Shown here piece by piece: positions 56,103 to 63,235 of a DNA stretch of 64,000 nucleotides. The notes beneath the pieces were generated by a model that saw only the letters and a list, made by a program, of their open reading frames with translations, made no database searches and was not told where the DNA came from. Positions within the stretch are counted from its first letter, which is position 1. The number at the start of each line of letters is the position of its first letter. The DNA comes from Thermodesulfobacteriota bacterium (GTDB taxonomy: Bacteria > Desulfobacterota > BSN033 > UBA1163), in assembly GCA_026415035.1 (NCBI GenBank), contig JAOAHX010000001.1, forward strand, positions 62,001 through 126,000. The letters run 5' to 3'. Position numbers and translations under genes: made by a program.

Positions 56103-56792
56103 CTGACCAAGCCTATTCTCATCATCGAGGATGAAAAGGACATCGCCGATCTGATCGAATACCATCTGACCCAATCGGGGTTCCAGGTCCTCCAGACCCA
56201 GAGCGGTCCCTCCGGACTGGAGCAGGCCAGAAGGCTTCGCCCTGCCCTCATCGTCCTTGACCTGATGCTTCCGGGCATGGATGGGAGAGATCTCTGCCGT
56301 GCTTTGAAATCGGATCCCGCCACCCGGTCGATTCCCATCGTCATGCTCACCGCCAAGGCGGAGGAGGTGGATCGCATCGTGGGCTTCGAAATCGGGGCGG
56401 ATGATTACGTCACCAAACCTTTCAGCCCGAGGGAGTTGGTCCTCCGGATCAAAGCGATCCTGAGAAGGAAGACCGAACCCGGGGAAGCCGAAAAGGTCAT
56501 CCAGGTGGAAGACCTGCTGATCGATGTGGAACGCCATGTCGTTTCCCTCAAGGGGAAGCCGATCCCTTTGACCTCTACCGAGTTCAAACTCCTTCTCGAA
56601 TTGGCCTCCCATCGCGGTCGGGTCAAAACCCGCCAATATCTCCTCGATCGGGTATGGGGGTACACCTACGAAGGCTACGCACGCACCGTCGACACCCACA
56701 TTCGGCGATTGAGGGAGAAGCTCGGACCGGCAGGCGACTGGATTGAAACCATTCGGGGCGTGGGTTACCGGTTTCGGGAAGAGGAAGAATGA
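56103..56792 (+). CDS. PhoB-type DNA-binding response regulator, apparent CTG start
   Basis: OmpR/PhoB-family regulator, 229 residues if translated from CTG 56103. Receiver: PILIIEDEKDIADLIEY, phosphoacceptor Asp53 in VLDLMLPGMDG, MLTAKAEE, GADDYVTKPFSPRELVLRI. C-terminal winged helix: LTSTEFKLLLELASHRGRV, DRVWGYTYEGYARTVDTHIRRLREKLG and VGYRFRE. The frame is open back to 56067 but holds no ATG, GTG or TTG before the receiver's first strand; GGGGGGAGAG lies a few bases before CTG. An ATG start at 56265 would delete half the receiver, including Asp53. It overlaps phoR by ATGA. Confidence 0.85.
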   Translation: MTKPILIIEDEKDIADLIEYHLTQSGFQVLQTQSGPSGLEQARRLRPALIVLDLMLPGMDGRDLCRALKSDPATRSIPIVMLTAKAEEVDRIVGFEIGADDYVTKPFSPRELVLRIKAILRRKTEPGEAEKVIQVEDLLIDVERHVVSLKGKPIPLTSTEFKLLLELASHRGRVKTRQYLLDRVWGYTYEGYARTVDTHIRRLREKLGPAGDWIETIRGVGYRFREEEE

Positions 56793-58096
56793 GGATCCAG
56801 ATCAAGGGACGCGGGCTGGCCCGGGTGGGCATGACCTTTTTCCTCTTCCTCCTCCTCCAATGGGGGATGATCACGTTCCTCCGAATGTCCTTCCCTCTGT
56901 CTTCTTTGGTCAGCTTGATCGTGCTCACCCCCCTGGCCTACCTCTTCCTGATGCCTTCCCAAAAAAATCGCCCCCCCTCTTCGGGACCGAGCGATCCATC
57001 CGAAAAAACCGGACCGGACCTCCTTCAAGAAATCTTCAGGGAGAAGGAGTATCTCCAAATCATCTTGAAAGGCATGACCGAAGGGGTCTTGGTGGTCGAT
57101 GGGGAGGGCCGCATCCAGATGGTGAACGAAGCCTTGCAAAGGTTCTTTCCGCTTCCCCCGGAGGTGGTCGATAAAACCCCCTTGGAGGTGATCCGAAACG
57201 TCGAGTTGGCGGAGGCCTTCCGACAGGCCCTCACCGAAGGAAAGACGACCTCCTTCGAATTGGCCCTCCCTTCCTTCCCCGAGAAATGGTTCGAGGTCAC
57301 CGTCGTTCCCATCCCTTCGACGCCCTCTCCCTCTAAAACCGGCCGAAAACGCGGTGGGGCGATCGGCGTCTTTCACGATATCAGCCGGCTCAAGAAGCTG
57401 GAGCGAATTCGGCAGGACTTCGTGGCCAATGTCTCCCATGAGTTGCGCACCCCTTTGACGACCATCAAAGGTTATGCCGAAACGCTCCTCGAGGGGGCCT
57501 TGAAGGAGGAGGTGGCCTACTCCTTTGTCGAGGTCATCAAAAAACATACCGACCGGTTGACCCAGATCGTGGAGGACCTCCTCACCCTTTCGAAGATCGA
57601 GTCCAAAGAGTTCCACCTCGCCCCCGAACCCCTTTCGCTCTCAGAGGCCCTGGAGGAGGCTTGGGAGTCGATCGAGGTCTCGGCCCGTAAAAAGAAGATC
57701 TCTCTCGTCAAACCCGAGGGGTTAGGGGAGGTCGTGGTCCAGGCGGACCGGAAGTATCTGACCCAGATTTTGATCAACCTCCTCGATAATGCCATCAAAT
57801 ATAATCGGGAGGGGGGGGAAGTCAGAATCGAGGTGGCCCGGAGGGGAGGCAAGGAATTCCAGATCTCCATCCATGACAACGGGATCGGCATTCCCAAGGA
57901 GGACCTTCCGAGGATCTTCGAACGCTTCTACCGAGTCGATAAAGGGAGGTCGAAGGAGTTAGGGGGAACAGGATTGGGCCTGTCCATCGTCAAACATCTG
58001 GTCCAGGCCCACGGGGGCACCGTCTGGGCGGAGAGTCAGCTGGAGAAAGGATCGACCTTCCACTTCACCCTTCCCTGCGACCCTCAGAGATTTTGA
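56789..58096 (+). CDS. phoR: PhoR-type sensor histidine kinase
   Basis: Membrane kinase, 435 residues, with two N-terminal helices (about 13-32 and 37-56), a PAS domain (about 83-200, GMTEGVLVVDGEGRIQMVNEAL), HisKA with His217 in FVANVSHELRTPLTTIKGYAETLLEGAL-type context and a catalytic domain with LLDNAIKYNREGG, DNGIGIPKEDLPRIFERFYRVDKGRS and GGTGLGLSIVKHLVQAHGG. The short periplasm-free sensor with PAS matches PhoR. It is the likely partner of the regulator just upstream. It overlaps the convergent ACT gene by 13 bp. Confidence 0.9.
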   Translation: MRIQIKGRGLARVGMTFFLFLLLQWGMITFLRMSFPLSSLVSLIVLTPLAYLFLMPSQKNRPPSSGPSDPSEKTGPDLLQEIFREKEYLQIILKGMTEGVLVVDGEGRIQMVNEALQRFFPLPPEVVDKTPLEVIRNVELAEAFRQALTEGKTTSFELALPSFPEKWFEVTVVPIPSTPSPSKTGRKRGGAIGVFHDISRLKKLERIRQDFVANVSHELRTPLTTIKGYAETLLEGALKEEVAYSFVEVIKKHTDRLTQIVEDLLTLSKIESKEFHLAPEPLSLSEALEEAWESIEVSARKKKISLVKPEGLGEVVVQADRKYLTQILINLLDNAIKYNREGGEVRIEVARRGGKEFQISIHDNGIGIPKEDLPRIFERFYRVDKGRSKELGGTGLGLSIVKHLVQAHGGTVWAESQLEKGSTFHFTLPCDPQRF

Positions 58097-58578
58097 AAGA
58101 GATCCTTTACCCGTTCGAAATCCGATTCGGCGATGTGGACGACGAACAGGGCCTCGGGCTGTTCTTCCATGGCCGACCCGTAAATATAGTCTATGTTGAC
58201 CTTGGCCTCTCCAAAGCGACTGGCGACCCGGCCGAGCATTCCCGGACGGTTGAGCAGCCGGAAAACCAGAACCTCATCCAGATGGACGAGGTGATTGGCC
58301 TCGAGGAGCACCTTCTCGGCCACTTCGGGTTTATCCACCAAGATTCGAATCAACGAGTAATCCGCAGAGTCTTTCAAGATGCCCCGATAGCTCTCGGCCA
58401 GGGCAATGCGTCGCCCCGTCTTCTCCCTCATATTAAAAAGCTCTTTGACCGAATCCTTCGCATTCTGGATGCTCATCGCCAAGATGTTGATATGGGCCTC
58501 CTTCAAGATCTGGCACATCTTGGCCAGTTCTCCGGGAGCATTGTTCAGTATGACCGAAAGTTGGGTCCTCCTCTCCAT
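58084..58578 (-). CDS. ACT-domain protein with tandem ACT domains
   Basis: A 164-residue soluble protein with two ACT domains (SVILNNAPGELAKMCQILKEAHINILAMS and FRLLNRPGMLGRVASRFGEAKVNIDYIYGS). Stand-alone double-ACT proteins usually bind amino acids or other small ligands as regulatory sensors. Its target is not indicated by the neighbours. Its stop codon lies inside the 3' end of phoR. Confidence 0.8.
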   Translation of the reverse strand: MERRTQLSVILNNAPGELAKMCQILKEAHINILAMSIQNAKDSVKELFNMREKTGRRIALAESYRGILKDSADYSLIRILVDKPEVAEKVLLEANHLVHLDEVLVFRLLNRPGMLGRVASRFGEAKVNIDYIYGSAMEEQPEALFVVHIAESDFERVKDLFQNL

Positions 58579-58682
58579 CTCCCCTCACCTCGTTTCTTCC
58601 CCCCGATGCGGTGGAACATAACCGATTTCGCCCCCCGAGGTCAAGAAAGGCGAAGGCCCCCCTTCAGGAGAATTTCACGTCC

Positions 58683-58700
58683 CCGTCACTCCTTTGTAAC
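58683..58700 (+). promoter_or_regulatory. possible Pho-box-like repeat upstream of the PHP-kinase gene
   Basis: CCGTCAC (58683-58689), a 4-bp spacer and TTGTAAC (58694-58700) are 7-mers phased by 11 bp, 23 bp before the ATG, similar in layout to PhoB sites. Similarity to the repeats at 61730-61758 is only partial. Confidence 0.3.
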
Positions 58701-58723
58701 AATCAAGAGGTAAGCTGACCCTA

Positions 58724-60679
58724 ATGAACAGATGGCTTCGATGCGATCTCCACATCCACACCACCTGGAGCGACGGCGAGTTGCCTCTGGACCGGGTCAT
58801 TCGACTTTACGGGGAAGCGGGGTTCGACGCCATCGCCATCACCGATCACCTCTTCGACACCCAGTCCCCCAGGAGCCTCGAAATCTACGAGGAGGGCAAA
58901 TCGGTTCAGGACCTCAATCGCTATTTTAAATCGATCGACGAGATGGCCAAGAAAGCGAGGGAGGCCTATGACCTCCTGATCCTCCCGGGCTTAGAAATCT
59001 GCAACTTAGTCGAAGATTATCACATCCTCGGGATCGACTTAAGAGAGGGGGTCAATCCGAATCAGTCCGCAGAAGAGGTCATCCGTCAAATCCACGAGCA
59101 GGGTGGCCTGGCCATCGCCTCCCATCCCCCTCTGAAGCTCTCTTATTTTCTCAACGGAGATCTCGAATCCCTTCATCGCCATCCCCTTCGCCTCTGGACG
59201 CATCGAGACCGCTATGCCGGTCAGATCGACGCCTGGGAGATCGGAAACGGCGAAGACCTGTTTGGAGATGTGGGATTGGAACGATTCCCCTATCTGGCCA
59301 ACTCCGATTTTCACAAACCCCATCACCTCTACTCCTGGAAATCGCTCATTTTCGCAGAAAAAGAGAAGGAGAGTCTCAAGAAGGCCATCGGGGCGAAGCA
59401 GGTGGCGATCTTCTTCTTTGAAAATCCACAACGGCAAGGGAGGGCCTTCCTGGGGAAGAGGCCCACTCCTTCCAAAACCAGGGGAGGCCAAATGGCGCAA
59501 ACCAATCGCGGGAAAATCTTGATCGCGGACGACGAGAAGGATCTGGTCGAAATGCTGGCCTATCATTTCGAGCGGAGGGGGTATCAGGTCCTCAAAGCCT
59601 TCGATGGGTATGAGGCCTGGGAAAAGATCACCTCCGAGCCTCCCGATCTTCTGATCCTCGATCTGATGATGCCCCATCTGGATGGGTGGGAACTCTGCCG
59701 GCTAATCCGCCAGAGCGAGCACGGGCCCACCCGGAGCATCGGGATCCTGATGCTGACCGCGCGGGCGATGGAGGAGGACAAGATCCAAGGGCTCGAAATG
59801 GGAGCCGATGACTACCTCTCCAAACCCTTCTCCCTAAATGAGCTGATGTTACGCGCGGAAAAGCTGGTAGGGAAGAAGCGATCCTTTGATCAATTGCAGG
59901 AGGAGAGAAAGAACCTTCAGACGGCTCTGGAGGTGAAGGAGGCCCAGGTGAAACAGGTGGTCCACGATTTGAAGTCCCCTCTCCTGTCGATCGGATGTTC
60001 TGCTAAACGAATGCTCCGTCGCACGGAGGACCCGGAGACGGCCCAGATCCTTCGGTCCATCCTCGACGGAAGCCTCCACCTGACCCGCTGGATCGACGAG
60101 ATCCTCCTGTCCCAAAATCTGAGGGAATCCAACTGGAAGGACTTCTGCCGGGAGGTCGAGGGAAGGTCACTCGTCCAGGAAGCCATCCGCCTCCTCCACA
60201 TGATGGCTGAAGAAAAAGGGGTGGAGATCGCCTTTTGCGCTCCCCCTCCCTATCTGAAACTCTCCCTCCACGAGCCCCTGATGCTTCGGGCCTTGGTCAA
60301 CCTCCTTGCCAATGCCATAAGATACTCGCACCCGGGAGGGAAGGTGGAAGTGACCCTCCGTCACTATTTGAACCGAAGGGGTTCGGGCGTGATGGAGCTG
60401 ACGATTCAGGACCACGGGGTGGGCATCCCGGAAGAGGACCTGGGAAAGATCTTCGAACCCTACTACCGGGGGAAGAACGTTCGGGACGGAGAGGGAAGGG
60501 GCATCGGACTGACCTTCGCCAAAGAGGTCATCGAGTTACATGGGGGAAAGATCCTGGTTCAGAGCGAACTGGGAAAGGGAAGCACGTTTTATCTCTTGTT
60601 ACCCATCCGGGAGGCGCCACAAGAGGCCCCCGAAAGCATCGGTCCGTCGCCCTCGGACCCTCATCTCACCCCTTCGTGA
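58724..60679 (+). CDS. PHP phosphoesterase - receiver - histidine kinase fusion protein
   Basis: A 651-residue soluble protein with three parts. PHP domain (about 1-235) with complete metal ligands: HIHTTWSDG (His10, His12, Asp17), ITDH (Asp41, His42), GLEI (Glu91), His100, SHPP (His134), NSDFH (Asp195, His197). Receiver (about 265-385): IADDEKD, phosphoacceptor Asp313 in [28 protein letters not shown]. Kinase (about 405-630): His414 in [35 protein letters not shown] and [19 protein letters not shown] Pro/Gly/Arg linker joins the PHP and receiver parts, and a strong ribosome-binding site with an in-frame ATG (residue 257) sits in it. Function is unknown; no close neighbour partner apart from two PhoB-like regulators. 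Confidence 0.9.
59481..59494 (+). promoter_or_regulatory. internal ribosome-binding site and start within the PHP-kinase gene
   Basis: GGGGAGG at 59481-59487 lies 4 nt before an in-frame ATG at 59492 (Met257). It would yield a 395-residue receiver-kinase protein without the PHP domain. The start falls exactly at the domain boundary, before the receiver's first strand. Confidence 0.6.
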
Positions 60680-60704: not shown

Positions 60705-61412
60705 TTAGAACGATTGAGGCTCCTCCTCTGAGTCCCGCTCTCGAAACCGGTATCCGACCCCCCTGACCGTCTCGATACGGTCTCTCTCAGGTCCAAGCTT
60801 GTCTCTCAATCGCCGGACATGGGTATCCACGGTCCTTGCATAACCTTCGTAGGTGTATCCCCAGACCCGATCGAGGAGCACCTCCCTCGTCAGCACCCTT
60901 CCCCTCTTCGAGACCAGCTCAACCAGGAGTTTAAATTCGGTATGGGTCAACGGGACGGGTTTCTTGCCGACCATGACCCGGTGCCTCTCCACGTCAATCA
61001 CCAGATCGCCGATCTCAAAAAGTGTTTCGCCCTCCTCCTGGGTCTGCTTTCGATTCAGGATCGCCTTGACCCTCAGGACCAGTTCTTTGGGACTGAAGGG
61101 TTTGGTGACGTAATCGTCGGCGCCCAATTCGAATCCGACGATGCGATCCACCTCTTCCGCCTTCGCGGTAAGGATCAAGATCGGGATGGAACGGGTGGAG
61201 GGATTGGCCTTCATCGCCCGACAGATCTCTTTCCCATCCATGTCCGGGAGCATCAAGTCTAAGATGATGAGGGGTGGCTTGGACCGTTTGACCTGTTCAA
61301 GGGCGGTCGTCCCGTCGGGGGCCGTGGCGATGGGAAACCCAGCTTGTCTGAACTGATATTCCACCAATCGCGCAATATCCGGGTCATCCTCGACAACCAG
61401 AATGGGATTCAT
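60705..61412 (-). CDS. phoB: PhoB-type DNA-binding response regulator
   Basis: Winged-helix response regulator, 235 residues from the ATG at 61412 (a GTG at 61424 is possible). Receiver: NPILVVEDDPDIARLVEY, Asp in ILDLMLPDMDG, ILTAKAEEVDRIVGFELGADDYVTKPFSPKELVLR. DNA-binding part: LTHTEFKLLVELVSKRGRV, DRVWGYTYEGYARTVDTHVRRLRDKLG, RGVGYRF. It is very similar to the regulator at 56103-56792. It lies convergent to the PHP-kinase gene, 26 bp apart, and divergent from arsC. Confidence 0.9.
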   Translation of the reverse strand: MNPILVVEDDPDIARLVEYQFRQAGFPIATAPDGTTALEQVKRSKPPLIILDLMLPDMDGKEICRAMKANPSTRSIPILILTAKAEEVDRIVGFELGADDYVTKPFSPKELVLRVKAILNRKQTQEEGETLFEIGDLVIDVERHRVMVGKKPVPLTHTEFKLLVELVSKRGRVLTREVLLDRVWGYTYEGYARTVDTHVRRLRDKLGPERDRIETVRGVGYRFRERDSEEEPQSF

Positions 61413-61427
61413 TGCGCCAGGCACTCC

Positions 61428-62296: not shown

Positions 62297-63235
62297 TCAG
62301 GCCTCCGATTTCAAGCAGGTCTCGATCACGGCCCTTAAATTTTCTCTTGACTCCCCGAGATGACGGAAGTATCGGTTTCGAAGCTCCATGATGAACATTC
62401 CCTCGTAGGAGGGAAGGTAAACGGACAAGAGGTCGGCGATCGGGATCTCCCCCCACCCCACCGGCATGTGGGCGTCCCCCCGTCCGAAGGGGATTTGATG
62501 GGTTTGGATCTTCTCATGGTAATAGATAGCCCCCCCGTAATTATCGTGGACATGGGTATGGGCGATAAGAGGGGCGGCGGCCCGGACAGCCTCCACCGGG
62601 TCAAAGCGATAAAAGAGGGCGGCCATATAGAGATGGCCTAAATCCAGATTGATCCTGACATTGGGCCTGCCGATCCGGGTGACCTGATCAAGTAGCCACT
62701 CCATCTTCTCGCCATAACAATAGGGACTATGATGGAGGTAGGGCCTGGCGTTTTCGATACAGATCACGATCTGGGGGTATTCCTCCGAAAGCCGTAAGAT
62801 CCGTTCCCTCTCGATCTCCATTAAACGATCGGCCACCTGCTTAGGGAGGGGGGTGCCGTTACGAACGGGGAAGGTCTCTTCGGGAACGAATCGGCCCGCG
62901 TGGTAGACCAGAATACGGGATCCGATGGACAGGGTAAATTCGAGGCTCGCCTTGAAGACCGAATAGTGGATCTCCGGATTCCACTGGTCCATCAAATTTA
63001 ATGGGTTGGGGCTATGGACGCTGTAGGAAAAATCGAAGTCGTTTAGAATCCGTTGGACCTCTCGAAACCTCCGCTCATCCGGAAGGCCTCCTTTGATGGC
63101 ATCGACCCCGTGGACCGGAATCTCCACCGCTTCCATCCCAAGGTCGGCAAAGTGCTGAAGGTCCCTCCGCAGGGCCTCCAGGTCTCCGTCGATCCGAACC
63201 TCATCGATCTTGCAACCGATCTGGAACAAGGCCAC
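62297..63235 (-). CDS. sugar-phosphate isomerase/epimerase-like TIM-barrel protein
   Basis: Xylose-isomerase-like TIM barrel family (AP-endonuclease-2 fold), 312 residues. It starts FQIGCKIDEVRIDGDLEALRRDLQHFADLGMEAVEIP, with HSPNPLN, YHAGRF, ENARPYLHHSP, NLDLGHLYMA and HTHVHDNYGG, whose His, Glu and Asp residues fit the metal site. The substrate is unknown. It lies 19 bp downstream of phnM in the same direction, so it may act on a phosphonate- or sugar-phosphate-derived product. Confidence 0.8.
   Translation of the reverse strand: MALFQIGCKIDEVRIDGDLEALRRDLQHFADLGMEAVEIPVHGVDAIKGGLPDERRFREVQRILNDFDFSYSVHSPNPLNLMDQWNPEIHYSVFKASLEFTLSIGSRILVYHAGRFVPEETFPVRNGTPLPKQVADRLMEIERERILRLSEEYPQIVICIENARPYLHHSPYCYGEKMEWLLDQVTRIGRPNVRINLDLGHLYMAALFYRFDPVEAVRAAAPLIAHTHVHDNYGGAIYYHEKIQTHQIPFGRGDAHMPVGWGEIPIADLLSVYLPSYEGMFIMELRNRYFRHLGESRENLRAVIETCLKSEA

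Follow-up and report, generated by a model that had tools for sequence, protein, structure and literature searches.

The question raised by this locus was whether a PHP-type phosphoesterase, a receiver, and a histidine kinase are encoded there as one protein and, if so, what such a protein might do. In the window, by which we mean the whole 64,000-nucleotide stretch of DNA analyzed, positions 58724-60679 (+) form a single open frame of 651 codons that encodes all three (Table 1).

A single frame for PHP, receiver, and kinase

Pfam placed a PHP domain at residues 8-93 (28.6 bits, cut-off 26.4), Response_reg at 265-377 (98 bits), HisKA at 406-463 (25.4 bits, slightly below the cut-off of 26.9), and HATPase_c at 520-629 (97 bits), and no membrane-span-like stretch was seen in the fusion sequence. 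An AF2 model made from 55 aligned sequences had a mean pLDDT of 87.8 (a six-sequence input gave 60) and laid out the PHP at 1-232, a disordered linker core at 241-257, the receiver at 264-378, a helix at 371-433, and then the CA domain; its pTM of 0.54 makes the relative placement of these domains unreliable. The preliminary description of this DNA had claimed the uninterrupted frame and had named Asp313 of the receiver and His414 of the kinase, and both residue assignments were correct. The stop or frameshift at residues 235-265 that it had listed as evidence against a fusion was absent, and the frame was also open in five other assemblies.

Table 1. Features of the fused gene, its promoter region, and the genes beside it (positions in the window)
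Feature	Position	Strand	Basis or remark
PhoB-like regulator 1, start codon uncertain	56103..56792	+	
PhoR/PnpS-like sensor kinase	56789..58096	+	PnpS 388 bits (cut-off 400), PhoR 298 (cut-off 334)
ACT-domain protein, divergent from fusion	58084..58578	-	adjoins fusion in most fusion loci
Triple Pho box, TTTCAC-N5-CGTCAC-N5-TGTAAC, 11-bp period	58673..58700	+	shuffles, genome-wide pattern
-10-like hexamer TAAGCT, 10 bp past Pho box, 7 nt before ATG	58711..58716	+	TAANNT at the matching place in G015, G013, G008, and G001
PHP domain, TM0559 family, residues 1-232, nine metal ligands intact	58724..59419	+	Pfam, alignment, AF2, Foldseek
Linker, residues 233-263	59420..59512	+	alignment, AF2
Putative internal Shine-Dalgarno AGGGGAGG and in-frame ATG (residue 257; ATG 59492-59494)	59480..59494	+	duplex energy
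Receiver, residues 264-380, PhoB-like; D269/D270, D313, K367	59513..59863	+	Pfam, models, alignment
Single predicted helix 371-433, receiver alpha5 into DHp alpha1, alpha-S type	59834..60022	+	AF2; LvrB-like layout
HisKA/DHp, residues 406-465, phospho-acceptor H414 (codon 59963-59965)	59939..60118	+	Pfam, alignment, AF2
CA (HATPase_c), residues 477-630; N530, D563/G565/G567, F577, G593/G595	60152..60613	+	Pfam, alignment
PhoB-like regulator 2 (PhoB2), without own kinase, convergent with fusion	60705..61424	-	TIGR02154

The PHP-receiver-kinase fusion is real. Among 59 related genomes searched, the five further assemblies carried it at full length without a stop (57-64% identical); they belong to genera g1, g3, and g4 of the same family as the source genome and are labelled Syntrophaceae, Deltaproteobacteria, or uncultured proteobacterium, and all of the fusion genomes are MAGs. 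The catalytic residues of PHP, receiver, and kinase were invariant across the six fusions, as were the H, N, G1, F, and G2 boxes of the kinase. The PHP (66-85% identity between fusions) was conserved at least as well as the histidine kinase (46-74%), and dN/dS was about 0.1 for the G015-G013 pair, an estimate obtainable for some pairs while others were saturated. The source MAG consists of 81 contigs, which might suggest an assembly chimera or a pseudogene, but six separate assemblies, invariant active sites, and purifying selection leave that explanation with practically no probability.

Within the order (17 genomes) the fusion was found in six and a receiver-kinase alone in one, G005, so the fusion is dispensable; across 395 genomes of the phylum the search added no other. 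When GTDB r220 contigs were scanned with two peptide patterns of the fused PHP, 173 relatives came up, and the best 80 of these comprised five fusions and 75 free PHPs with open frames of 229-340 residues; a fusion with neither pattern would escape such a scan. In a tree of 91 proteins the fused PHPs formed one clade (100/99) whose sister was the pair of free PHPs L054 and L055 (100/98), which points to one fusion event. The free PHP of L054 adjoins a PhoB-PhoR-type pair. The free PHP that the genome itself carries (G000:C1:143998-144693) fell inside a Nitrospirota clade, and we therefore rejected it as the source of the fused PHP by recent duplication.

The receiver-kinase of G005, a congener, starts at the matching place and has no intact PHP. 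The region before this gene (L041:9500-10040) is decayed: a profile match begins at residue 223, and three in-frame stops lie over the PHP 3' end and the linker. This region is likely a remnant of the PHP 3' end, although at the DNA level the remnant scored hardly above shuffles. From the three stops, the PHP was probably lost once, in the G005 lineage.

The linker core (241-257) had pLDDT below 50 and is predicted to be disordered, and linker identity between fusions was only 4-25%, yet the reading frame was kept. Within the linker, an AGGAGG-like sequence precedes the pre-receiver ATG in five of the six fusions, with duplex energies of -9.3 to -11.2 kcal/mol (top 2-4% of codon positions; in the window, -11.2 kcal/mol and top 3%), and is weaker in G008 (11%). 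The residues encoded at this site differ among fusions, the window gene included (RGGQM vs QEDDM). Retention of a Shine-Dalgarno and ATG in an otherwise unconserved, disordered linker suggests that an internal start yields a second, receiver-kinase-only product, and retention at the nucleotide level suggests that the site is in use; it could also be the leftover of a once separate gene. A linker this disordered and variable, together with the possible internal start, makes rigid mechanical coupling between PHP and kinase less likely.

A Pho-type promoter and Pho genes around the fusion

The preliminary description had called the setting phosphate-related, and the promoter and neighbors bear this out: a triple Pho box precedes the gene, and its neighbors are phoB, phoR, the ACT-domain gene, a second phoB, an ArsC-like gene, C-P lyase (phn) genes, and pst-phoU. 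Three TGTCAC-like half-sites with an 11-bp period lie about -50 from the start in all six fusions, i.e., a tandem Pho box of the kind expected for the PhoB regulon, at promoter distance. The score of the window box was reached by none of 1000 dinucleotide shuffles (0-2 of 1000 across the six). In the 3.06-Mb genome a degenerate Pho pattern, composed after the fusion site had been seen, had three matches, two of them ahead of pstS and the third ahead of the fusion (reversed control, 0), and a strict pattern matched a single time, before pstS. When 183 upstream regions (those of ORFs of at least 200 aa in the examined loci) were scored, the top values belonged to the fusions, pstS, a DUF1571-PHP operon, and alkaline phosphatase. 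The triple box in all six fusions and the rare genome-wide pattern shared with pstS together point to PhoB-regulon membership, and we regard the fusion as a predicted member with high confidence. In G005 no Pho box was found ahead of the receiver-kinase gene.

In five of the six genes (window, G015, G013, G008, and G001) a TAANNT hexamer follows the box by 10 bp and precedes the ATG by 6-8 nt; the G011 row in this comparison was shifted by 15 nt, its start having been placed too far upstream. This position predicts that transcription begins at the ATG or no more than a few bases from it, i.e., that the fusion transcript is leaderless or nearly so.

PhoB2 matched the PhoB model (TIGR02154) best, at 246 bits (cut-off 296). 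It neighbors the fusion also in G015, G013, and G008. In G005 it lies by the receiver-kinase gene that lacks a PHP, and in G011 it does not adjoin the fusion; we consider it a candidate output partner of the fused kinase. Other features of the neighborhood were recorded as well. The ACT-domain gene sits between phoR and the fusion, and the intergenic region with the Pho box is common to both it and the fusion. At the C-P lyase end, a sugar-isomerase-like gene (62297-63235, -) adjoins phnM, a pairing kept in G005 and G008. A pair of genes for a 118-138 aa protein and an MBL-fold hydrolase lies near the fusion of G008 (L040:7301-8411) and near the PHP-less gene of G005 (L041:12663-13803), and adjoins the free PHP in L055 (L055:53-1118).

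The PHP domain and its free relatives

Published work gives a nine-position PHP ligand consensus of H-H-D/H-H-E-H-C/H-D/N-H (PMC3666897). The preliminary description had seen all expected metal ligands in the fusion, and all nine positions (H10, H12, D17, H42, E91, H100, H134, D195, and H197) match this consensus; they were invariant in 6/6 fusions and 91/91 aligned family members. Assignment to the PHP superfamily fold follows from a PF02811 score above cut-off and from the AF2 model, which had pLDDT > 90 across most of the domain and for which the best Foldseek match in the PDB was 2ANU (target TM-score 0.89-0.90). This entry is TM0559 of Thermotoga maritima, the function of which was given as unknown in 2009 (PMC2709924), and we found no biochemistry in the papers searched for any TM0559-family PHP. 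The fused PHP is likely to be a catalytic, metal-dependent phosphoesterase.

A clue to its substrate came from the free relatives. In 31 of the 34 free-PHP loci with a glycosyltransferase, a GT21 gene directly follows the PHP, often with a GH1 gene ahead of the PHP. Upstream of these PHPs, the Pho-box scores had a median of 14.0 compared with 10.15 for controls, and 94% exceeded the control 95th percentile (Mann-Whitney p 1e-18, for sequences that are related rather than independent). GT21 includes the glycoglycerolipid synthases known as Pgts (PMC8231724). The arrangement resembles the Pho-regulon lipid remodelling operons of the PlcP-Agt/Pgt type (PMC4796936, PMC8231724), in which a phosphoesterase is followed by a glycolipid-type glycosyltransferase behind a Pho box, just as the free PHP is followed by GT21 behind a Pho box; the differences are that PlcP is another metallophosphoesterase, not a PHP, and that the fused PHP has no adjoining glycosyltransferase. 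Pho-boxed free TM0559-type PHPs followed by GT21 occur in the source genome itself (L043:16758-18693, i.e., C1:142758-144693) and in Nitrospirota (L084-L126). By this operon analogy, the free PHP-GT21 operon is a candidate for PlcP-independent lipid remodelling; the PlcP type itself is characterized by a phospholipase C activity that releases diacylglycerol.

Upstream of the free PHP in the source genome is a DUF1571 gene with a high Pho-box score (L043:18818-19591, -), with relatives in G005, G001, and G012. In Chlorobi, genes for a phosphoesterase of the calcineurin type, for an acyltransferase, and for a GNAT protein are often beside the PHP, which has no Pho box before it; they follow the PHP at L078, L080, L081, and similar loci, which possibly represent an aminolipid pathway.

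Gene context and Pho boxes tie the free members of the TM0559 family to phosphate starvation, and probably to lipids, and they favor a lipid- or organophosphate-derived substrate, which is our best guess for the fused PHP too. The preliminary description had suggested a nucleotide or a phosphometabolite; for a nucleotide we found no support, the PHP falling in the TM0559 family, and we regard it as a less likely substrate. A cyclic-phosphate role beside C-P lyase was considered and set aside, since the NCBIfam model match was only 22 bits and phn genes do not adjoin the fusion in every genome.

Proposed working and comparison with known systems

As far as sequence can speak, the fusion itself, its conservation, the full PHP metal site, the single fusion event, and the PhoB-type promoter are strongly supported. 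On these we built a reading that we hold at roughly even odds: a soluble starvation protein whose TM0559-type PHP, probably catalytic, is tethered flexibly to a receiver-controlled kinase of LvrB-like layout within the PhoR-PhoB network. When phosphate is short, PhoR-PhoB would switch the fusion gene on, and the PHP, acting as a tethered enzyme, would hydrolyze a phosphoester released in starvation, most likely one derived from lipid or organophosphate. The PhoB-like receiver would take up phosphate at D313 from within the Pho network, with PhoR the closest candidate donor, and would then switch the attached kinase via the alpha-S helix; the kinase might hand the phosphate on, and the most plausible recipient is the kinase-less PhoB2. 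We infer the direction of this relay and its partners from gene neighborhood only. If the internal start gives kinase without PHP, the enzyme-to-kinase ratio could be adjusted independently.

The strongest competitor, which we nonetheless think improbable, is that the halves are merely co-expressed as a fused operon, with the PHP a phosphate scavenger and the receiver-kinase a regulator working independently of it. The linker does retain a Shine-Dalgarno and start codon, and each half occurs singly elsewhere (the PHP in L054 and L055, the receiver-kinase in G005), but the frame has stayed stop-free in six lineages despite linker drift. Slightly less probable still is that the PHP is mainly a sensor, in which binding of a phosphoester or phosphate at the metal site switches the receiver-kinase and hydrolysis is secondary. 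An N-terminal place is typical of kinase input domains and a binding-only metal site would look identical; against this, the connection to the PHP is an unconserved, disordered linker and not a helix, the internal start and the G005 gene give kinase without PHP, and the receiver is already an input. Quite unlikely, in our view, is a PHP that acts as a phosphoprotein phosphatase on the receiver, the kinase His, or PhoB in a negative feedback loop, such that Pho-box control would delay the feedback. Other PHP enzymes are protein tyrosine phosphatases (PMC10816263), but we found no precedent for a PHP acting on phospho-Asp or phospho-His, and the free relatives are mostly tied to glycosyltransferase and glycoside hydrolase, not specifically to kinases.

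Pho signalling usually senses phosphate via PstSCAB-PhoU at the membrane. If the tethered-enzyme reading is true, a Pho-induced cytoplasmic phosphoesterase-kinase would add a second layer that couples internal phosphoester use to the Pho network, and the TM0559 family, with a solved structure and a blank function, would gain a testable role in phosphate starvation, probably with lipids, that would concern Nitrospirota, Syntrophaceae-like bacteria, and perhaps Chlorobi. That everything holds jointly, i.e., two products from a near-leaderless transcript and an internal start, phosphoester turnover wired into PhoR-PhoB, and TM0559 proteins as starvation phosphoesterases acting with GT21 in lipid replacement, is improbable, about as likely as the strongest of the rivals.

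Compared with TM0559 (2ANU), the fused PHP aligns whole (230 residues, E-value 3e-52) and has the nine ligands and the fold in common, whereas TM0559 is free-standing, 255 residues long, and without receiver or kinase. To PhoR-PhoB the fusion has likenesses in its Pho box, PhoB-like receiver, PnpS/PhoR-like kinase core, and neighbors, with the receiver and kinase scoring to the PhoB and PnpS/PhoR models, respectively, far below the equivalog cut-offs; it differs in having no membrane part, no DNA-binding domain, and a receiver ahead of the kinase in one chain. Our search of openly accessible papers found no PHP-receiver-kinase protein. The best multi-domain Foldseek match to the receiver-kinase was LvrB of Leptospira (8VC9, PMC13269768), with ~20% identity over ~390 aligned columns. 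In LvrB, the prototype of receiver-controlled kinases, a phosphorylated receiver brings the signalling helices together as a coiled coil, and the CA domain is released (PMC13269768). The fusion has the same receiver-DHp-CA order and a receiver alpha5 continuing into the signalling helix, but here a PHP precedes the receiver; LvrB has no PHP, and its input is LvrA and its output LvrC. The interpretation in the preliminary description is supported in part: the receiver-DHp-CA kinase is of a type already described, for example in LvrB, and what is new relative to such kinases is the added PHP and the predicted Pho-regulon control.
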